Assembly (NCBI GenBank): GCA_035653615.1
Contig: DASRBN010000015.1
Coordinates: 186,001 to 250,000, forward strand
Length of the DNA stretch: 64,000 nucleotides
From: Ktedonobacteraceae bacterium
GTDB taxonomy: Bacteria > Chloroflexota > Ktedonobacteria > Ktedonobacterales > Ktedonobacteraceae
Direction: 5' to 3'
Below, piece after piece: positions 13,986 through 51,383 of this stretch. Every line of letters starts with the position of its first letter. The stretch's first letter is position 1. Position numbers and translations under genes: made by a program. The notes under the pieces were generated by a model. The model saw only the letters and a program-made list of their open reading frames with translations, made no database searches and had not been told where the DNA came from.

Positions 13986-16793
13986 ATGCAGCAGGTTCAG
14001 GGACGGCAGCCGAAACGATCAATTCGCGTGCGCCTGATCGTATTTATAATCGCGCTACTCATACTCATCGCCGGCGCGATCTTCCTGGCTTTGCAGAGCC
14101 TCAACTCCCTCCCTGCCCTTATCGTAACAATTTTCGGCGCGTTGGCAACCATATTTACCTTCCTGCAATTGTGGCCCATTTTCTTCCAAAAACCACCTGG
14201 ACCGGTTGCAGCCGCACCGCCCGTTCCCGTACCCCAGCCTATCAACATCCACTTTCACAATCCAGGTGGTACAGCATCTACAATGTTGCCGGTTATTACA
14301 ACGGAGCCTCAACCGGTTAGCACCTTACCTGATCCACCTGCCCCAGCTATTGCTCGCGATGATCTTACCCTGCACGCTCTACCTTTGCCCACAGACCCAT
14401 CCAGCATCCAGCAGCGCCAGATAGCCGTTGATGAAATCTACTCATTGCTAGTTGCTCCCGATACCGCCGCCGTTGTACTTACTGGCATCGGTGGCATCGG
14501 CAAATCCACGCTAGCATCGTTAGTATTCAACCACGCGGAACGCGAGCGGCGCGCAGGCAGAGGACCTTTTCAAAGCGAAGCCATATTATTGCGCATCAAT
14601 GACAATACCACCTTCCTCGAACTTGCTACCAACCTCTTTGCCGCCACGAATAGATCTATGCCCAATTTGGCAAACCTGCCACCACAGAATCAGGCCTTCG
14701 CCGTCTTCAATGCCCTGAATACGACAGACCAGCCGCGCCTGATCGTCCTGGATCAGTTCGAGAGCATGCTTGACCAGCACAGCGGACGCGCCCTCCCGAC
14801 TCAAGCCGGTGTGGGTGAATTCCTTGATGCTCTTAATAGCCAGTCCTGCACCAGCGGCCTACTGCTCACCAGCCGACCGCACCCCCACGGCACGCGCAAC
14901 GATGCACCTGCCTCACTGCGCATCTATCCTGTTGGCGGCCTTGATGAACAGGAAGGTGCTGCCTTGCTCAAGAGCCAGGGCGTTGCAGGCACCGAGCAGG
15001 AATTGTATGAAGCCGTGAGGCGCTGCAAAGGCCATACCCTCTCGCTCCGACTGCTCAACACCCTTTTGCGAACATACGGCATCAGCCTGACAACCCTGCT
15101 TACCAACCCTGATTATGAGCGTCTCTGGAGAGACCACATCGCGCAAAACCTGCTTAACCGCATTTTCGCCGGCCTGCCAGAACAAGCCTGTCAATTGTTA
15201 TGCGCCTTTTCCGTCTATCGTGAAGCCGTGCCTATCGATGCAGCATTGCCAATCGCTACTAGCATAACAAAACCCCAGGCGCTGGCAATCCTTGCCAGCC
15301 TGTTGGGTCAGCACCTCATCGAGCCTCAATCCATGAATGGTTCTTACAGGCTTCATCCTATTGTCGCCACCTACGCCTATGACCATTTTGTCGAAAACGA
15401 TGAGGCAGCGAACAGAGAAGCTCAGCAAGTGGCCCACGCGAAAGCCGCCCAATACTATCTGCCGGTAGCCACCATACGCTGTCCCGAACCCGACAAACGA
15501 AAAAAGATCAGCGATGTGGAACCGCTGATCGAGGCGGTCTGGCAATTCTGCCAGGCTGGACAGTTTCAAGAGGCGTATGATCTCCTGGAGCGGGATGGCC
15601 TTGCTGATAGTTTGAGTCTTTGGAGTGCAAATACCACCTTGCTTGAGTTGTATCGGCTTTTCTTATCTGAAAACAGGCAATATACACCACAGCAAAAGGA
15701 TCTTATTTTCAACAATTTGGGCTACATTTATGATTCCTTAGGGCAGAAGCGGCAGGCGTTAGAGTACTATAAGAAGTCTCTGGATATCAGCCGAGAAGTG
15801 GGAGACCGTGGGGGAGAGGGAATCTCACTCAACAACGTAGGCGGCGTATACGATAACTTAGGGCAGAAACAGCAGGCGTTAGAGTACTATAAGCAATCTC
15901 TGGACATCAGGCGGGAAGTAGGAGATCGTAGAGGAGAGGGAACCACACTCAATAGCCTGGGTCGCATGTACGATAACTTAGGACAGAAACAGCAGGCGTT
16001 AGAGTACTATAAGCAATCTCTGGACATCAGGCGGGAAGTAGGAGATCGCAGAGGAGAGGGTATCACTCTCAACAATCTGGGCACTGTGTACAATGATTTA
16101 GGACAGAAGGAGCAGGCCTTGGAGTACTACGAACAGGCATTGACCACCAGCCAAGAAGTAGGAGATCGCGCAGCAGAAGGAACCACATTCAATAACCTGG
16201 GTTTACTGTACAATAATTTAGGGCAGAAGCAAGAGGCGTTGCGCTACTACGAGCAGGCCTTACGCATCTTTGGGGAAGTGGGAGATCGCGGGGGAGAAGG
16301 GACAATACTCAACAACCTGGGTCTCCTGTACGAAAGTTTAGGGCAGAAGCAGCAGGCGCTCCAGTATTTCCGGCAAGTATTGGCCATCAGCCAAGAAGTA
16401 GGAGATCGCGCAGCAGAAGGAACCGCGCTAAACAACATAGGCGGCGTGTACAATGCATTAGGGCAAAAGCAGCAAGCGTTGGAGTATTGCAAACAGGCAT
16501 TGGTCATTGGGCAGGAAGTGGGATCTCCATTTGGTGAGGGAGTAAGTCTTAATAATATTGGGGCAATCTTTAATGAACGAGGTGATGACGAACCTGCTCT
16601 TGCTTGCTTCCTGCTTGCCAGAACCCTCTTCGAACGAGTGCAAAGCCCATCAGATATTGATTCTGTAGAACGGTGGATAGAAGATTTGCGAAAGCGCCTG
16701 GGAGAAGATCGATTCGCAACTCTGCTGGCACAAGTTGAGCCGAGGGCTGAGCAGATTGTGCAGGATGCGCTGCGTTCGTCTGAATACCTCTAG
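13986..16793 (+). CDS. Membrane-anchored NB-ARC/STAND-type NTPase with eight TPRs
   Basis: A 935-residue protein. Two hydrophobic helices (about 17-35 and 42-62) anchor it, followed by a Pro-rich linker to about residue 120. The NTPase has Walker A GIGGIGKST (167-175), Walker B LIVLDQFE (about 252-259) and a sensor TSRPH, as in NB-ARC/STAND proteins. These are switch ATPases that oligomerise when the sensor domain binds a ligand. A winged-helix region follows. The C-terminus has eight consecutive 40-residue TPRs of the kinesin-light-chain type (GQKQQALEYY, GDRRGEG), encoded at about 15700-16660. Several are almost identical at the DNA level, so the array expanded recently. No effector domain (TIR, protease, nuclease) is visible, so its output is unknown. 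Confidence 0.9.
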   Translation: MQQVQGRQPKRSIRVRLIVFIIALLILIAGAIFLALQSLNSLPALIVTIFGALATIFTFLQLWPIFFQKPPGPVAAAPPVPVPQPINIHFHNPGGTASTMLPVITTEPQPVSTLPDPPAPAIARDDLTLHALPLPTDPSSIQQRQIAVDEIYSLLVAPDTAAVVLTGIGGIGKSTLASLVFNHAERERRAGRGPFQSEAILLRINDNTTFLELATNLFAATNRSMPNLANLPPQNQAFAVFNALNTTDQPRLIVLDQFESMLDQHSGRALPTQAGVGEFLDALNSQSCTSGLLLTSRPHPHGTRNDAPASLRIYPVGGLDEQEGAALLKSQGVAGTEQELYEAVRRCKGHTLSLRLLNTLLRTYGISLTTLLTNPDYERLWRDHIAQNLLNRIFAGLPEQACQLLCAFSVYREAVPIDAALPIATSITKPQALAILASLLGQHLIEPQSMNGSYRLHPIVATYAYDHFVENDEAANREAQQVAHAKAAQYYLPVATIRCPEPDKRKKISDVEPLIEAVWQFCQAGQFQEAYDLLERDGLADSLSLWSANTTLLELYRLFLSENRQYTPQQKDLIFNNLGYIYDSLGQKRQALEYYKKSLDISREVGDRGGEGISLNNVGGVYDNLGQKQQALEYYKQSLDIRREVGDRRGEGTTLNSLGRMYDNLGQKQQALEYYKQSLDIRREVGDRRGEGITLNNLGTVYNDLGQKEQALEYYEQALTTSQEVGDRAAEGTTFNNLGLLYNNLGQKQEALRYYEQALRIFGEVGDRGGEGTILNNLGLLYESLGQKQQALQYFRQVLAISQEVGDRAAEGTALNNIGGVYNALGQKQQALEYCKQALVIGQEVGSPFGEGVSLNNIGAIFNERGDDEPALACFLLARTLFERVQSPSDIDSVERWIEDLRKRLGEDRFATLLAQVEPRAEQIVQDALRSSEYL
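15737..16560 (+). repeat. 120-bp tandem coding repeats (TPR array)
   Basis: Units of exactly 120 bp encode the 40-residue TPRs of the NTPase. Units starting near 15857 and 15977 differ at only a handful of positions. The invariant block TTAGGGCAGAAGCAGCAGGC (with small changes) recurs in each. The pattern is coding, with period 120 and no spacer diversity, so it is not a CRISPR. Confidence 0.9.
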
Positions 16794-45209: not shown

Positions 45210-46715
45210 TAGTAACTACTCAGGTGTCCTAGAGATTTGCCAAAGAGTTCAACATCCTGTAGAGTAAGGGCATGACGCCAGAAGAAGAACTGCTTCAGCT
45301 TCGACAAGAGAATAAAGACTTGCATGAGCGACTGGCCCAACGAGATGAACTGATCGCTCACTTGCAGCAACGGGTGCAAGCGCTGGAAGAGCGGCTGGCC
45401 AAAGATAGTCACAACAGTCACTTGCCGCCGTCCTCGGACCGCTTTGTGCGACAGCCCAAGAGTCTGCGCAAGAAGAGCGGGAAGAAAGCGGGCGGACAGG
45501 AGGGTCACCCAGGCGCGACGCTGGCGTGGCATGCCTGCCCTGATGAGGTGATTGTGCATGCGGTCACCTGCTGTGACCACTGCCAATACGATCTGCAAGG
45601 GGTGAAGCCCCTGCAAATCGAACGTCGCCAAGTGGTGGATGTGCCAGCGCCCCGCCTGCTCGTGCAAGAGCATCAAGCGGAGCGCAAACAGTGTCCTTGC
45701 TGCCAACAAATCACCGCCGCCGCCTTCCCAGCGGGGGTAGAAGCCCCGCTCCAGTACGGCATGCGTCTGGGGGCCACTGCTGTCTACCTGGTGCAGCAGC
45801 AACTCTTGCCCTGGGGCCGAGCCTGTGAAGTACTCGCGGACCTGCTCGGGGTCCAGATCAGTGAGGGCACGCTGGCTAGTCTGATCGAGCGCTGCGCCCA
45901 GAACCTGAAAGAAGTCGAGCAAGCCACCAAGGAAGCTTTGGTGAAAGCCGAGGTGCTCCATCAAGATGAAACGGGTCTCTACGTGAAAGGCATGCGCTAC
46001 TGGATGCATGTGGCCTCTACAGCGCAGCTCACCCACTACGCGGTTCACCCCAAGCGAGGCAAAGACGCCTTGGATGCCATCGGCATCTTGCCCCGTTTTG
46101 GGGGCACATCGGTCCATGATGGCTGGCGCTCGTACTTCCTGTATGCCTGTGCGCACGCCCTCTGTCTGGTGCATCTGTTGCGCGAGCTGACGTTCCTGGC
46201 AGAAGAACAGGGCCTGCAGTGGGCAGCAGAGCTCAAAACCTTGTTGCTGGATATGAAAGAGGCGACTGATGAAGCACGAAAGCTCGGTCTGGCCACGTTG
46301 CATCCCCTGGAGGTAGAGGACTGGCAAGCCCAGTTCGTGGCTCTGCTGGCACACGCTGACGCGACGACCCCCACCGCTCAGGCTCCCCCCGGCAAAAAAG
46401 GACGGGTGAAACAGAGTGCGGCGCGCAACTTGCTGGACCGCTTGCTCGAGGACCAGGAGGCCGTGCTGGCCTTCCTGCACCGCCTCGTCGTGCCTTTTGA
46501 CAATAACCAGGCGGAGCGCGATGTGCGCATGGTCAAAGTCCAGCAAAAGGTCTCTGGCTCTTTCCGCAGCGAAGCGGGAGCGACGGCCTTTTGTCGCATC
46601 CGCGGTTATTTGTCGACGTTGCGCAAGCAGGGCGTGGATCTGCTTTCTGCTTTGGAGGCCACGTTGCGCGGTCATCCTGTCCTTCCTTCATTTCAGACTA
46701 CCTGAGTAGTTACTA
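45210..46715 (+). mobile_element. IS66-family insertion sequence (transposase-only subgroup)
   Basis: TAGTAACTACTCAGGT at 45210-45225 is the exact inverse of ACCTGAGTAGTTACTA at 46700-46715, defining 16-bp terminal inverted repeats about 1.5 kb apart and enclosing a single transposase gene. There are no TnpA/TnpB accessory frames, as in the one-gene IS66 (ISBst12-like) branch. I could not find an 8-bp target duplication at the flanks. The element separates the PQQ-type gene from the integrase region. Confidence 0.85.
45272..46705 (+). CDS. tnpC: IS66-family transposase (TnpC type)
   Basis: A 477-residue DDE transposase. The N-terminal coiled coil (about 1-45) is followed by the LZ/NSH...SSDR motif (SHLPPSSDRF), a basic linker, a zinc-binding cluster (CCDHCQYDL... 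CPCCQQ) and the catalytic core: Asp232 (HQDETGLYV), Asp283 (VHDGWRSY) and Glu415 (DNNQAERDVR), the IS66 DDE triad. The C-terminal SFRSEAGATAFCRIRGYLSTLRKQG is the IS66_C segment. Intact. The long antisense frame on the other strand is a shadow. Confidence 0.97.
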   Translation: MTPEEELLQLRQENKDLHERLAQRDELIAHLQQRVQALEERLAKDSHNSHLPPSSDRFVRQPKSLRKKSGKKAGGQEGHPGATLAWHACPDEVIVHAVTCCDHCQYDLQGVKPLQIERRQVVDVPAPRLLVQEHQAERKQCPCCQQITAAAFPAGVEAPLQYGMRLGATAVYLVQQQLLPWGRACEVLADLLGVQISEGTLASLIERCAQNLKEVEQATKEALVKAEVLHQDETGLYVKGMRYWMHVASTAQLTHYAVHPKRGKDALDAIGILPRFGGTSVHDGWRSYFLYACAHALCLVHLLRELTFLAEEQGLQWAAELKTLLLDMKEATDEARKLGLATLHPLEVEDWQAQFVALLAHADATTPTAQAPPGKKGRVKQSAARNLLDRLLEDQEAVLAFLHRLVVPFDNNQAERDVRMVKVQQKVSGSFRSEAGATAFCRIRGYLSTLRKQGVDLLSALEATLRGHPVLPSFQTT

Positions 46716-46820: not shown

Positions 46821-47942
46821 TTAAGGACGCTTAAAGATATTCTCCATTCTTTCAACGACTTCCCGCCTCTGCTCAGGTAGCACGCTCTGATAGATATCCG
46901 CCGTAATCGCTATCGAGCTATGGCCCAACAATTCTGACACGACCTTTAAGTCAACTTTTGCCACAATCAAGATAGTTGCCACACTATGACGCAAATCATG
47001 AAACCGCACATCCGGTAAACCTGCCTTTTTCAAAAGTTTCTTAAAAAGCACGGTCATATGGTCAGCGTCATGATAGTTACCAACGGTGTTGCAGAAAACA
47101 AGCCCTTTTTCTTGCCACTTCTCACCAGCTTTTAACCTTGCCTGTTCCTGCTTTTCCCGATGCTCTTCTAACGCTTTTAACACAACAGGAGCAAGCGCAA
47201 TCTTACGCCTACCCGCTTTTGACTTTGGTTCTTTCTCAATATTTCCTACGCCATCCATACGCGCAACATTGCGCCGCACATGTAGTATCCCCGTCTCACT
47301 ATCTAAATCACTCCAATGAAGCGAAACCAGTTCGCCACGTCTCATCCCTGTTGTAAGAGCTACCAAAAGCAACGCATCCAGACGAGAACCACGCGCCACA
47401 TCCAAAAGTTTACGCGCTTGAGCTTCTGTCAATACTTGCCCCTCGTATCTCTCAGCACTAGGAAGCTGTACCATACTAGCTATATTGCGTTCGACTAATC
47501 CCCACTGTGCAGCATTGGTCAAGGCACTACTCAACACAGTACGGATATACCCAAGCATCGAAGGCTTTAACATTCCCTGCTTTTTCGCAAAAAAAGCCTG
47601 TAACTGCTCTACTGTGAGCTTTTGAAGCTTAATATGTCCAAGCGCAGGTATCAAATGGCATTTTACCGCCGAACGATACCCATTGTACGTATTCGGACTC
47701 TTCGTTAACCTAATCACCTGCTCTATCCACTTTTCTAGATACGTCCCTAATGTCTGTTCTGGCCCAGTTAGTAAAGCCCCGCGCTTCTGTTCGTAGAGTG
47801 CTAATTTTAGCTTTTCTTGCACTTCCCTACGAGTTTCACCATAGAATGTCTTCCTCTTACGGTTCTCTAAAGTAACAGCCGCAGCCCATCGCCCATCTTT
47901 CCGTTGATAAATGGAACCTTCACCATGCCCACGACGTGCCAT
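46821..47942 (-). CDS. int: Tyrosine integrase (phage/ICE type)
   Basis: A 373-residue integrase. An N-terminal AP2-like arm-binding segment (GEGSIYQRKDGRWAAAVTLENRKRKTFYGETRREV) is followed by a SAM-like core-binding domain (about 60-155) and a catalytic domain with Arg201 (TTGMRRGEL), Lys242 (EPKSKAGRRKI), His315 and Arg318 (RFHDLRHS), His341 (LLGHSSI) and nucleophile Tyr351 (DIYQ). All active-site residues are present. The gene follows the excisionase-like HTH by 21 bp, giving an xis-int operon. The att site would be expected in the AT-rich stretch 46716-46820 next to its 3' end. Confidence 0.95.
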   Translation of the reverse strand: MARRGHGEGSIYQRKDGRWAAAVTLENRKRKTFYGETRREVQEKLKLALYEQKRGALLTGPEQTLGTYLEKWIEQVIRLTKSPNTYNGYRSAVKCHLIPALGHIKLQKLTVEQLQAFFAKKQGMLKPSMLGYIRTVLSSALTNAAQWGLVERNIASMVQLPSAERYEGQVLTEAQARKLLDVARGSRLDALLLVALTTGMRRGELVSLHWSDLDSETGILHVRRNVARMDGVGNIEKEPKSKAGRRKIALAPVVLKALEEHREKQEQARLKAGEKWQEKGLVFCNTVGNYHDADHMTVLFKKLLKKAGLPDVRFHDLRHSVATILIVAKVDLKVVSELLGHSSIAITADIYQSVLPEQRREVVERMENIFKRP

Positions 47943-47963
47943 TATTTTTATCCTTTCTGGAGC

Positions 47964-48170
47964 CTATGCCCCACGCTCAATACGCCGCTCTATCCAATCC
48001 CGAAGCGAGACGTGATAGACCCGCACCGACCGCCCAAAATGCACGACAGGCAAACCTTCCATAGCGATCAGTTCGTACACTTTCGCCCGACTCAACCGCA
48101 GCGATACCGCCACTTCTGGAATACTCAACAATAATGGTTGAAAACTGGAACTCTGTTTCTGTTTCGTCAT
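47964..48170 (-). CDS. xis: Excisionase-type helix-turn-helix protein
   Basis: A 68-residue protein with a MerR/excisionase winged helix: LLLSIPEVAVSLRLSRAKVYELIAMEGLPVVHFGRSVRVYHVSLRDWIERR. This is the HTH_17 form used by recombination directionality factors. ATG at 48170 is preferred over the longer open frame (to 48251), whose N-terminus lacks homology to the family. It lies 21 bp upstream of the integrase on the same strand and would bias integrase toward excision. Confidence 0.87.
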   Translation of the reverse strand: MTKQKQSSSFQPLLLSIPEVAVSLRLSRAKVYELIAMEGLPVVHFGRSVRVYHVSLRDWIERRIERGA

Positions 48171-48340
48171 AGCACACCACTCTTTCAAAACCCGAACCGA
48201 TAAACAGAACAAACCCGACCAATTTCCGAGAAGAAACCCGAAACCGAGCAAGCAGAGATGTAGATAGAGGGGCGCGGTTTACTTGCACTGCGCCTATGAA
48301 ACATCTCGCGACGTTTTTCAAAACTGTGCGTTAGGCACGC

Positions 48341-48600
48341 TTTTTTGAAGGATATTTTTTGTGTGGCTCGACTCCCGACGCGAACAGCCAAGAGCCAGCA
48401 GGACAGCAACCCACCGCTTTTTTTGAAGTACATTTTTTTTGTGCTGGTTGTCCACGCGAACAGCCACAGGGGAACCGAACAGCACGCCGACACTTTTTTG
48501 AAGGACAGGTGTGGTGTGGCTTGACGCCCGATCAGTGCCAGTGCGACCGGGCAGGAGCAGCCCCCGCCCCGTTGGTGCAGGGAATTTTTTTTAGTGTCGG
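48341..48600. repeat. Degenerate ~77-bp periodic array in noncoding leader
   Basis: The motif CTTTTTTGAAG recurs at 48340, 48417 and 48493 (spacings 77 and 76), with a weaker A/T tract at 48582. Each is followed at similar distances by GTGTGGCT(C/T)GAC or CGCGAACAGCCA. The bases between are GC-rich and diverge. The array lies in the 733-bp gap 48171-48903 between the xis and sigma-factor genes; a long minus-strand frame across it is compositionally odd (Ser/Cys/Trp rich) and not credible. It could be an origin/iteron region, a regulatory array or RNA. Confidence 0.5.
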
Positions 48601-48903
48601 CGGTGGAAGCGGTACACGTTGTGGCAACAAGAGAGCCACCCGCAGCCAGAGCCGCAGACCCGCCATCAGCCGTCACGAGAACCAGAGAGCGTGTGGCGTG
48701 TGGCGTGCAAGGAGTTTCTCCAACCGAGCAACCATCAGAAGCCATCCAATCCACACGAGCCACCCAATATGCCAAACTGAGCGATGAAACAGACCAGGAG
48801 AAGACCCATCGGGAGGGAAGGCCGAGAACCAAAGAGGTATCAGTCACGGCCCCCCACTGGCGTAAAGTATCCTGCTGCATGGCCCTTGCTTTTTCTCTCT
48901 CCA

Positions 48904-49842
48904 CTATGCCACCTCCTGAGAAGACAGACCTGATTGTTCGAGCCGCCCAATCAACCGGCCAAGAGCACACCGGTTATGTTCCATGACACACGTCTTCGAC
49001 AGACCAAGCATCTTAGCGACCTCTCGCCACGACCGCACCGCCGATGGCCCTTCATCAAATCCATAGCGGGTGTACAAAACCTTGCGTTGTTGCTCCGTTA
49101 ATACCGTGTGTATCGCCTCATAAAGTACCTCTATCACCGCCGTTGTCCCTTCCATACCCCCATCGAGAGACGCATACAGCAGACGCACACCATCACACGC
49201 CTCCTCACCCTCCTTCTCAAGATGACCCTCAAAACTGGCAAGAAAGCGATACTGTTGATAGGAACCTAATTCCAGCACCTTTTCAACCGAGAGATGCAAA
49301 GCCGCCGCCAGTTCACACGGCATCGGTTCACGTTCCTGTGTGTCACAGAACCTCTCCTCAGCCTGTGCCAGCCGTTTGAGTTGACCAACCACCTCAGCAG
49401 GGACTCGTACCATGCCATCGCGATGATAGGACAAATCGTACATCGCTCCACGAATATAGGCCAGTGCCAGCGTGTGAAAAGCGGCTCCCGTCAACGCTTC
49501 ATACGTGTCTAAGCGATCAAGAAAATGGAGCAATCCGATTACACCCTCATTGATAAAATCGAGTCGGTCATTACTCGCACTCGAACGAGCGAACGAAGCA
49601 GCAATACTGGCAATCACCCGTTGATACGCCTCGACCAGACGGCTACGAGCTTCACGTGCTACCTGAACATCCACAGATGAAGCAGCAGAAGCCCTTCCCT
49701 GTTGGAGCAGTGCAACCAAACGGGCTTCTTCCTCTCGTGAAAGCGTCGGCATCCAACACAATTCCCGAAAGTATTGGTCATGTGCCATCAACGAAACAGC
49801 AAGGTCAGCGTCATGTGCATGAGCCTCATCAAAGTACGTCAT
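48904..49842 (-). CDS. Sigma-70-like RNA polymerase sigma factor carried by the integrative element
   Basis: A 312-residue protein with the order of sigma-70 group regions: region 1.2 (CWMPTLSREEEARLVALLQQG), region 2 (LVEAYQRVIASIAASFARSSASNDRLDFINEGVIGLLHFLDRLDTYEALTGAAFHTLALAYIRGAMYDLS), region 3 (VRVPAEVVGQLKRLAQAEERF) and region 4 (VLTEQQRKVLYTRYGFDEGPSAVRSWREVAKMLGLSKTCVMEHNRCALGRL), with the DNA-binding HTH. It resembles primary-like rather than ECF sigmas. Sitting inside an integrase-bearing element, it probably directs host RNA polymerase to element promoters. The ATG overlaps the stop of an upstream small frame by ATGA. Confidence 0.85.
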   Translation of the reverse strand: MTYFDEAHAHDADLAVSLMAHDQYFRELCWMPTLSREEEARLVALLQQGRASAASSVDVQVAREARSRLVEAYQRVIASIAASFARSSASNDRLDFINEGVIGLLHFLDRLDTYEALTGAAFHTLALAYIRGAMYDLSYHRDGMVRVPAEVVGQLKRLAQAEERFCDTQEREPMPCELAAALHLSVEKVLELGSYQQYRFLASFEGHLEKEGEEACDGVRLLYASLDGGMEGTTAVIEVLYEAIHTVLTEQQRKVLYTRYGFDEGPSAVRSWREVAKMLGLSKTCVMEHNRCALGRLIGRLEQSGLSSQEVA

Positions 49843-50087
49843 TCCCGTTGTTCCTTCCGTGTGTTTGACAGGTCAGGCTCGATGCTCATATGATGAGAGC
49901 GAGAGCCTGACAGTACGACCCAATCGGCTAACTGGTTTCTCATGGCTGGCTCGTGTGCTGGAACCATACGAGCTAGCACCTCAACAGAACGCACTACGAA
50001 TGTTCGCGACACCAATACACGGCGAACCATCGCTCTAACCCCGGTAGGCAGCCCGGACACACAAAACGTTGCCAGCAGCGAATGCAC
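49839..50087 (-). CDS. Possible small gene translationally coupled to the sigma factor
   Basis: An 82-codon frame from GTG 50087 ends with TGA overlapping the sigma-factor ATG (ATGA), a frequent sign of coupling. The product is basic (RAMVRRVLVSRTFVVRSVEVLARMV) with no family or motif and only a poor ribosome site. It could be a chance frame. Recorded because of the overlap. The rest of the gap 49843-50344 contains the iterons and promoter upstream of the HTH-GNAT gene. Confidence 0.25.
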   Translation of the reverse strand: MHSLLATFCVSGLPTGVRAMVRRVLVSRTFVVRSVEVLARMVPAHEPAMRNQLADWVVLSGSRSHHMSIEPDLSNTRKEQRE

Positions 50088-50202
50088 ACAAAATGGCCTT
50101 TTTTGCTTCCGACACTGGCTTGAATGAGATGTCCCTTACTCGAAGAACAAGCCGAACTCATAACCAACTCCTCATACAGTAATATCCATTGCCAAAATAG
50201 GA

Positions 50203-50229
50203 AACTTGGATAACTTGGACAACTTGATA
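50203..50229. promoter_or_regulatory. Three tandem 9-bp AACTTGGAT-type repeats (operator or iteron-like)
   Basis: AACTTGGAT (50203-50211), AACTTGGAC (50212-50220) and AACTTGATA (50221-50229) are in direct tandem. A related, partly inverse segment AAGTTGGGAAACTT lies at 50282-50295 over the promoter. The arrangement suits binding by the downstream HTH protein. Confidence 0.45.
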
Positions 50230-50276
50230 ATATTGTACCTGATAATTTTTAATTCGTCAAGTCAAATAGGCCAAAT

Positions 50277-50305
50277 TTGCAAAGTTGGGAAACTTAGTGT
50301 AAAAT
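50277..50305 (+). promoter_or_regulatory. Sigma-70-type promoter of the HTH-GNAT gene
   Basis: TTGCAA (50277-50282) and TAAAAT (50300-50305) are 17 bp apart and 40 bp before the ATG. They overlap the AAGTTGGGAAACTT motif, so binding there would block transcription. Confidence 0.55.
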
Positions 50306-50344
50306 AGACATATTAACACTGTCAAAAAAGGAGGATAAACCCAC

Positions 50345-51286
50345 ATGGCATTGAAGGAGTCTAAGGACTACTACACAGCCGCTCAGGTCAAAGAAATACT
50401 TGGTATCACAGACGGAATGCTCTACAACTATGTAGACAACGGAGCTTTGCAACGCATCATCCCACCCGGAAAAAAGCAAGGAGTATACCGCCGCGATCAG
50501 GTAAACCGACTGGCACGCGACCTCAAAGTCTTTATTGTCACGAGAGAAAGCCGACCCACCATCTTTACCAGAATGACCACCAGAGAGGAGGTACTTGAAA
50601 CCACAAAAATTAGCGATGCAATCTTCGGAGGACACATAGATATTGACAGACAGTTAGCATGGTTGAAGAGAAATCCCGACATCGGCTATGTGGTCAAAAA
50701 TGAAGGCAAAGTAGTAGGCTACGCAATCGTACTACCGCTAAAACCGGAGAAGATAGAAAAGCTCCTACGAGAGGAAGAACACACTGTCAATCTCGAACCC
50801 GAAGAGCTACAGGTATTCGAGCCAGGCATACCGGTACACCTCTATGGAGGAGCAATAGGCGTTCTCTCTGGCATAAGCCTTGCAGAAAAACGCACCTATG
50901 GTGCACGCCTCGTTGGTGGACTCATTGACGCCTTGATTGATATGGGAAAAAGAGGTATCATCTTTGAGAGTTTCACCGCTAGAAGTACAAAGCCCGATGG
51001 CATAAAACTTTTACGCAATCTTGGCTTTACTCAGATACCGTCAGTCACAGAGAAAAAGGATTTCGTACTGAATGTCGAGATGTCAGGAGCAAGAGAAGTC
51101 ATGCAATATAAACTGGCATTAAAAGAGTACGAACTAAAAACCGACCGTCAGGAGCAAAGAATTGACAGCAAATCTGACAGCAAAGCCGACGGAAAAGCAC
51201 AAACAATGGTAGACATCAGTGGACAAAGTAACGCGAAGCGAAAAACGCCGAGCCACTCGAAAAGCCACTCGACAAAGGTACAATAA
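50345..51286 (+). CDS. MerR-like HTH protein fused to a GNAT-like domain
   Basis: A 313-residue protein. The N-terminal winged HTH (YYTAAQVKEILGITDGMLYNYVDNGALQRIIPPGKKQGVYRRDQVNRL) is of the excisionase/MerR type. The middle (about 75-255) has GNAT features: DIDRQLAWLKRNPDIGYVVKNEGKVVGYAIVLPL, GAIGVLSGISLAEKRTYGARLVGGLIDALIDMGKRGI where the acetyl-CoA loop would be, and RSTKPDGIKLLRNLGFTQIP. The C-terminus is a Lys/Ser-rich disordered tail. A strong AGGAGG precedes the ATG. HTH-GNAT fusions like this are recurrent in Ktedonobacterial accessory DNA. It probably regulates the element, with its own promoter carrying tandem repeats. Confidence 0.72.
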   Translation: MALKESKDYYTAAQVKEILGITDGMLYNYVDNGALQRIIPPGKKQGVYRRDQVNRLARDLKVFIVTRESRPTIFTRMTTREEVLETTKISDAIFGGHIDIDRQLAWLKRNPDIGYVVKNEGKVVGYAIVLPLKPEKIEKLLREEEHTVNLEPEELQVFEPGIPVHLYGGAIGVLSGISLAEKRTYGARLVGGLIDALIDMGKRGIIFESFTARSTKPDGIKLLRNLGFTQIPSVTEKKDFVLNVEMSGAREVMQYKLALKEYELKTDRQEQRIDSKSDSKADGKAQTMVDISGQSNAKRKTPSHSKSHSTKVQ

Positions 51287-51305
51287 CCTGTAAGGAGATA
51301 TCGCT

Positions 51306-51383
51306 ATGCAAAAGAAAAAGACCTTTAGCACAATGGAGAAAGTGCTGAAAGCATTGCTGTTCTCAATAATGATGTATATATAG
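51306..51383 (+). CDS. Possible 25-residue peptide after the HTH-GNAT gene
   Basis: ATG at 51306 has AAGGAG 8 nt upstream and gives MQKKKTFSTMEKVLKALLFS then IMMYI and a stop. A basic N-terminus and hydrophobic end suggest a membrane peptide. It could equally be the broken 5' end of a lost gene at the edge of the element. Confidence 0.25.
   Translation: MQKKKTFSTMEKVLKALLFSIMMYI

Follow-up and report, generated by a model that had tools for sequence, protein, structure and literature searches.

Can a mobile element retarget the host polymerase for its own excision? This question can be asked directly of a locus in a 64,000-nucleotide stretch of a Ktedonobacteraceae (soil) bacterium (assembly GCA_035653615.1, contig DASRBN010000015.1, positions 186,001 to 250,000; G000:C15:186001-250000 in our numbering of genomes, contigs and loci), which lies in a 6.59-Mb genome with a gene content that points to Ktedonobacterales and is referred to as the window. 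A preliminary description of this DNA had proposed a compact integrative element, in which an integrase gene (int) and a gene for an excisionase-like helix-turn-helix (HTH) protein (xis) are accompanied by a sigma-70-like factor and a regulator with an HTH and a GNAT part (HTH-GNAT). We propose, with moderate confidence, that the locus is a probably stranded member of an element family, in which HTH-GNAT acts as a repressor, and that derepression leads to production of the sigma factor, which would then retarget the polymerase to xis and int.

Gene content of the locus and its relatives

The gene set of the preliminary description was confirmed by Pfam and profile matches and by fold, and a small zinc-ribbon-like gene, overlooked at the time, can be added to it. 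On the minus strand, read from right to left, lie the zinc-ribbon gene, the sigma-70 gene, a gap of 730 bp, xis and int, whereas the HTH-GNAT gene is divergent and located on the plus strand. The locus is flanked by a copy of an IS66-family insertion sequence on the int side and by a gene for a secreted protein on the other side. The genes, with protein lengths in amino acids (aa), are:

46821..47942, minus strand: int, a tyrosine-recombinase integrase, 373 aa (Phage_integrase 2e-29, SAM-like 4e-13)
47964..48170, minus strand: xis, an excisionase-like HTH_17 protein, 68 aa (HTH_17 1e-8; 'excise' 1.5e-8)
48904..49842, minus strand: sigma-70 family factor, 312 aa, regions 1.2-4, with altered promoter-reading residues in regions 2.4 and 4.2 (profiles, model, alignment)
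49994..50161, minus strand: zinc-ribbon-like gene, 55 aa (C..C...VCPGCL...WC..H), between promoter and sigma (homologs)
50345..51286, plus strand: HTH-GNAT regulator, 313 aa, with an N-terminal HTH_17/MerR-like domain, a GNAT fold and a low-confidence C-terminal tail (Pfam, AlphaFold)

All catalytic residues of the integrase are visible, namely R (TGMRRGEL), HxxR (HDLRH), H (LGHSS) and Y (IYQSV). Its homologs in relatives are 40-50% identical and adjoin xis and, often, the 3' ends of tRNA or transfer-messenger RNA (tmRNA) genes; xis is located directly beside int in the window, and its homologs neighbour int in the relatives too.

The family was surveyed by protein searches of 61 genomes and 100 loci. 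The set of regulator, sigma, xis and int recurs at unrelated sites in other genomes, and to this extent the proposal of an integrative element with a sigma factor stands; the window copy itself may be a stranded remnant and not a functional compact element. In the recurrent layout, HTH-GNAT is found at one end and is transcribed outward, xis and then int occupy the opposite end, and the genes in the middle, a sigma gene where present and then Rep or primase, are oriented towards int. The middle part holds an HUH Rep, an AEP primase or a protein of ~400 aa without assignment, plus variable genes. The earlier statement that no relaxase, capsid or replication gene is recognisable is therefore correct for the window copy, but not for the relatives, which bear an HUH Rep or AEP primase. 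The attachment (att) repeat lies ~66-190 bp from the int end in relatives, and several members use the 3' end of a tRNA or tmRNA gene as this repeat, which then occurs again on the far side of HTH-GNAT:

L071: tRNA-Pro, 23-bp repeat, 13.1 kb
L072: tRNA-Leu, 25-bp repeat, 10.3 kb
L073: tmRNA, 25-bp repeat, 6.9 kb
L122: tmRNA, 44-bp repeat, 9.2 kb
L167: tRNA-Leu, 61-bp repeat, 10.1 kb
L079 (G000:C30, the window's genome): 3' end of the tmRNA at 15649-16015, 31-bp repeat, 12.5 kb, without sigma

Since HTH-GNAT lies within these tRNA- or tmRNA-anchored repeats, it is a gene of the element and the family is integrative. HTH-GNAT is present in 25 of the 61 genomes searched, with 0 to 30 copies per genome; the relative G002, with a genome of 4.3 Mb, has 30 copies, of which several contain internal stops, and apparently harbours many remnants of this element family. 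No match to HTH-GNAT was found in plasmids or phages, and searches of open-licence papers yielded no description of such Ktedonobacterial elements or of HTH-GNAT repressors, so that the family is apparently undescribed so far. The ~400-aa protein (L069:14310-15512 and homologs) adjoins xis in many elements; Pfam yielded no match to it and PHROG a single weak one, and it is likely an unrecognised replication protein.

The element sigma factor

The sigma protein contains sigma-70 regions 2, 3 and 4 in order and matches RpoD/SigA-type models over its whole length (7e-21), with every single Pfam region slightly below its gathering cut-off. Its structural model, of moderate confidence (predicted local distance difference test, pLDDT, 78), has a full-length Foldseek match to housekeeping sigma factors (E 1e-9). 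A scan of the named genomes for close relatives returned none, and the phage proteins among the matches listed are only distantly related, with 24-28% identity. In a tree, the host sigma factors form one group (support 94), outside of which fall the window sigma and those of L060, L061, L121, L077 and L103; the L019 sigma also falls outside, its context not being established. Region 2.4 reads IRGAMYDL in the window sigma versus IRQAITRA in the host sigma, with loss of the paired tryptophans, and region 4.2 reads SKTCVMEHN versus TRERIRQIE. Due to these altered residues, the window sigma is expected to have a promoter preference unlike that of the host sigma.

A connection with the regulator is provided by two fusions. 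The L103 sigma (L103:6729-8177, minus strand) carries three C-terminal HTH_17 domains of the same type as the N-terminal one of HTH-GNAT (whole-protein E 7e-43), and the L061 sigma (L061:393-1649, minus strand) carries one C-terminal HTH_17 domain of the HTH-GNAT type (whole-protein E 1e-8). These fusions are independent evidence that sigma and regulator serve the same system, and they suggest that the sigma factors and the HTH arrays share a DNA target.

Sigma genes were also found within elements bounded by direct repeats, with L060 and L121 as the two cases. L121, located on contig 2 of the window's own genome, has 43-bp direct repeats at a distance of 14.2 kb, which enclose sigma, primase, HUH Rep, xis and int; in place of HTH-GNAT, it has an XRE-TPR protein as divergent regulator. 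L060, the closest sigma-bearing relative and from another genus, is bounded by direct repeats that are 11.2 kb apart and alignable over 95 bp at 84%, and between them lie two HTH-GNAT genes as well as sigma, Rep, xis and int. Its order is GNAT (leftward), sigma, Rep, xis and int (all rightward), and it may be a tandem of two elements. In the congener G016, both outer flanks of L060 are present at 97% identity and are joined by 458 bp resembling an element end; G016 has a nearly empty site for L060, not a perfectly clean one. L062 carries another sigma type and is bounded by an 18-bp repeat.

A candidate switch and competing explanations

Between the divergent genes and in the gap before xis, the following features were found:

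50203..50229, minus strand: candidate operator, a 9-bp repeat (AACTTgga) in three tandem copies that immediately follow the sigma-side -10 box
50232..50260, minus strand: predicted host-type promoter TTGACG-17-TACAAT, towards the zinc-ribbon and sigma genes (consensus-promoter scan)
50277..50305, plus strand: predicted HTH-GNAT promoter TTGCAA-17-TAAAAT, whose spacer holds an inverted AAGTT/AACTT pair
48337..48600, minus strand: repeat array in the sigma-xis gap with a period of 75-78, three good copies and one weak (self-match statistics)

The tandem 9-bp repeats had been assigned to the HTH-GNAT promoter. They are real and conserved in relatives, but they are placed at the start of the divergent promoter on the sigma side: AACTT starts at 50203, 50212 and 50221, where leftward transcription is expected to begin. 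Eight related upstream regions from several genera contain AACTT/AAGTT 36 times versus 7.1 expected (maximum of 14 in 500 shuffles), and nine-spaced pairs occur 11 times in the same regions versus 0.02 expected. In addition, 47 of 56 HTH-GNAT genes (3.1 expected) are accompanied by a strong promoter-like site in the opposite direction. Judged from this conservation, the 9-bp repeats are a conserved operator, and HTH-GNAT would be the protein that binds it. The HTH_17 match of HTH-GNAT is weak (3e-4) and its AlphaFold model has a pLDDT of 90.5. The comparison with the PDB was made with the GNAT part only (68-262), which matches N-acetyltransferases over 154 residues (Z 14, root-mean-square deviation 3.1), while the N-terminal HTH rests on Pfam and a hidden Markov model. 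The acetyl-CoA motif is partial (RTYGAR versus [QR]xxGx[GA]), with the first four positions kept and the last not being G/A; the protein is assigned to GNAT by its predicted fold and, with this partly kept motif, may be catalytic.

The array in the gap was initially described as having a period of 77 bp. It is real, with a best 60-base self-match of 38 compared to a maximum of 33 in 300 shuffles, but the period is not strict: a 25-nucleotide unit occurs four times, at 48341, 48419, 48494 and 48572 (spacing 78/75/78), the fourth copy being weak (64%). The consensus-promoter scan of the window element returned no host-type promoter towards xis-int between sigma and xis. Together with the altered promoter-reading residues, this is consistent with the suggestion of the preliminary description that the sigma factor could control the host polymerase. 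The open frame at 48185-48904 was rejected as a gene, its codon score being that of the background and stops being present in most of the weak matches to it elsewhere; the 75/78 spacing of the units preserves the reading frame although this frame looks non-coding. A structured origin or RNA was likewise rejected, as the single-strand fold is not stable (z -0.14 and +0.87) and there is no Rfam match.

Homologs of the zinc-ribbon protein are encoded, in int orientation, in four other element loci (L156:5727-5939, minus; L151:2552-2764, minus; L159:9273-9470, plus; L076:13291-13488, minus). It has no match to a Pfam family and is possibly an anti-sigma factor or another small regulator. An 82-aa frame immediately upstream of sigma was discarded, since its codon score equals the background and it is the overlapping zinc-ribbon frame that has homologs.

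Building on the genes and their family, on relatives that carry sigma between att repeats, on the conservation of operator and promoter and on the sigma-HTH fusions, we infer the functional part, that is, repression, sigma activity, the promoters targeted by sigma and the trigger, as follows. HTH-GNAT would bind the AACTT repeats lying between its own gene and the sigma gene, thereby holding down the strong leftward host-sigma promoter and tuning its own. Once repression is lifted, the host polymerase would transcribe the zinc-ribbon gene and the element sigma, which would direct the polymerase to promoters of a non-standard kind. The most likely place for these is the gap with the repeats upstream of xis-int and, in complete relatives, also the region before Rep. 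Transcription of xis-int would then result in excision. The window copy, without Rep or a detectable att repeat, may no longer be mobile.

Several points weigh against this proposal. No promoter used by the element sigma was identified, and a consensus-promoter scan is no proof of promoters. HTH-GNAT might activate transcription instead of repressing it, or it might act mainly as an acetyltransferase. The att repeat of the window copy was not found among exact matches of at least 10 bases or 22-mers with up to 4 mismatches, on both sides and around the IS66 copy. A sigma gene lies inside just 8 of 32 HTH-GNAT/int elements (7 in int orientation), a set that is biased upward as L060 and the window were picked for their sigma. 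The enrichment of sigma genes in elements compared to flanks is not significant (8 in 292 kb versus 5 in 306 kb, p 0.41), the Ktedonobacterial genomes compared being rich in sigma genes, and at least three unrelated sigma types occur inside elements. The sigma factor may be a frequent passenger and not a core part; given the biased set and a density not significantly above that of the flanks, we make no claim that it belongs to the core of the family.

The chances are about even that the window copy is a dead remnant, that is, an old element that was immobilised by IS66 and by the loss of Rep and att and whose genes have not yet decayed. The insertion sequence in question is:

45211..46714, plus strand: IS66-family insertion sequence, outside the element (DDE_Tnp_IS66 7e-49; transposase 45272-46705; terminal inverted repeat AGTAACTACTCAGG)

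Its distance from the int stop is 106 bp, which falls into the range of 66-190 bp at which the att of relatives begins, and, by eye, a matching 8-bp target duplication is absent, which suggests a neighbouring deletion or rearrangement. The search for att direct repeats that the preliminary description had proposed gave no convincing candidate, and Rep, which L060 and L121 possess, is missing from the window copy. Neither of its ends could be mapped, and there is no basis for the end at 51383 given previously; the right-hand neighbour gene belongs to a multicopy family without synteny. On the other side, all five genes are open, and operator and promoter are intact and match those of distant relatives. 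Small size alone is not decay, because repeat-bounded members of only 4.0-5.5 kb exist (L155, L143), which hold just GNAT, in some cases xis, and int. As att direct repeats were not detected, we do not regard the window copy as a proven mobile element but class it as derived or a remnant; the copy has probably become stranded, and its switch is still intact. Such a remnant state concerns the present condition of the locus and is compatible with the mechanism proposed above.

It is less probable, though still a serious possibility, that the sigma factor is cargo, which acts on host genes or is useless to the element, and that HTH-GNAT alone controls xis-int by read-through from the divergent promoter. 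Most family members lack sigma, yet possess the same divergent promoter and int, and the sigma density and the several unrelated sigma types fit this explanation as well. However, in the window, L060, L103 and L121, sigma has the orientation of int and, within the genes running towards int, is placed on the side of the regulator, the element sigmas are unlike host sigmas, and two related sigmas exist as fusions with the regulator's HTH.

The proposed repressor-sigma switch can also be extended, as a speculation to which we attach little weight: the elements might form a large undescribed class, in which the HTH-GNAT repressor senses acetyl-CoA or acetylates the element sigma or the host polymerase, so that metabolic state would time the takeover by sigma; the sigma-HTH fusions would then represent the same circuit, with direct recruitment of sigma to the operator.

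We consider it improbable, no search of defence-system libraries having been made, that sigma and HTH-GNAT serve element maintenance as a toxin-antitoxin or defence pair, with GNAT as the toxin. GNAT toxins exist. In addition, SigN of Bacillus subtilis is described as toxic at high expression (PMC10601692). The two genes are divergent and not organised in one operon, HTH-GNAT mostly occurs without sigma, and its acetyl-CoA motif (RTYGAR) is partial. Finally, a resident chromosomal regulatory locus, with sigma and a sensory HTH-GNAT beside an unrelated integrase, is very unlikely: the near-empty site comes from the L060 locus and not the window locus, but the same neighbours recur with int in att-bounded segments elsewhere, HTH-GNAT is scattered with its varying copy number, and instead of the one conserved locus without empty sites that the preliminary description would have taken as a sign of resident genes, we found relatives at tRNA-Leu, tRNA-Pro, tmRNA and other sites and a near-empty site in the congener.

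Comparison with known systems

Orf7 of Tn916 is a sigma-like protein. Orf9 is believed to repress orf7, whose product up-regulates xis and int (PMC7288454), and the order of divergent regulator, activator gene, xis and int is similar to the one described here. In contrast to Tn916, the window element, which belongs to another phylum, encodes a full-length sigma factor (regions 1.2-4), an HTH-GNAT repressor candidate and a zinc-ribbon gene, and neither tet(M) attenuation nor a conjugation module was found; there is no relaxase or FtsK-like coupling protein in the window element and no FtsK match in the intervals of the relatives, and the element is not a member of the Tn916 family.

On plasmid pBS32 of B. 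subtilis, LexA represses a host-type promoter of the sigma factor SigN (SigN/ZpdN), which then drives its own promoter (PMC6751061). As in our proposal, the sigma factor of a mobile replicon is placed behind a strong, repressed host-sigma promoter; unlike here, the repressor is the host LexA, the replicon is a plasmid and SigN has no link to int-xis. Conjugative transposons of Clostridioides difficile encode sigma-factor-like proteins, accessory genes with a -35-binding helix-turn-helix (PMC3158075). These are also integrated elements bearing sigma-like genes, whereas here a full-length sigma adjoins the regulator and xis-int.

Actinomycete integrative and conjugative elements (AICEs) are recognised by Int, RepSA, RepAM or Prim-Pol and an FtsK/SpoIIIE Tra protein, and sigma is not a defining module (PMC3218068). 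Int, xis, tRNA sites and, in relatives, RepSA-like or primase replication are shared with AICEs of the pSAM2 type. Unlike in AICEs, no FtsK/SpoIIIE or TraB transfer protein is present in the element intervals of the relatives examined, and the window copy has no Rep, so that it was not assigned to the AICEs.

Taken together, an element-borne sigma factor is not new in kind because of the precedents in Tn916, pBS32 and C. difficile, whereas the combination and the family appear to be new. With its own complete sigma factor, a conserved putative operator and a single candidate repressor, the system would represent a simple natural switch, found in a family that is widespread in Ktedonobacterales and that ties sigma factors to HTH arrays through fusions.

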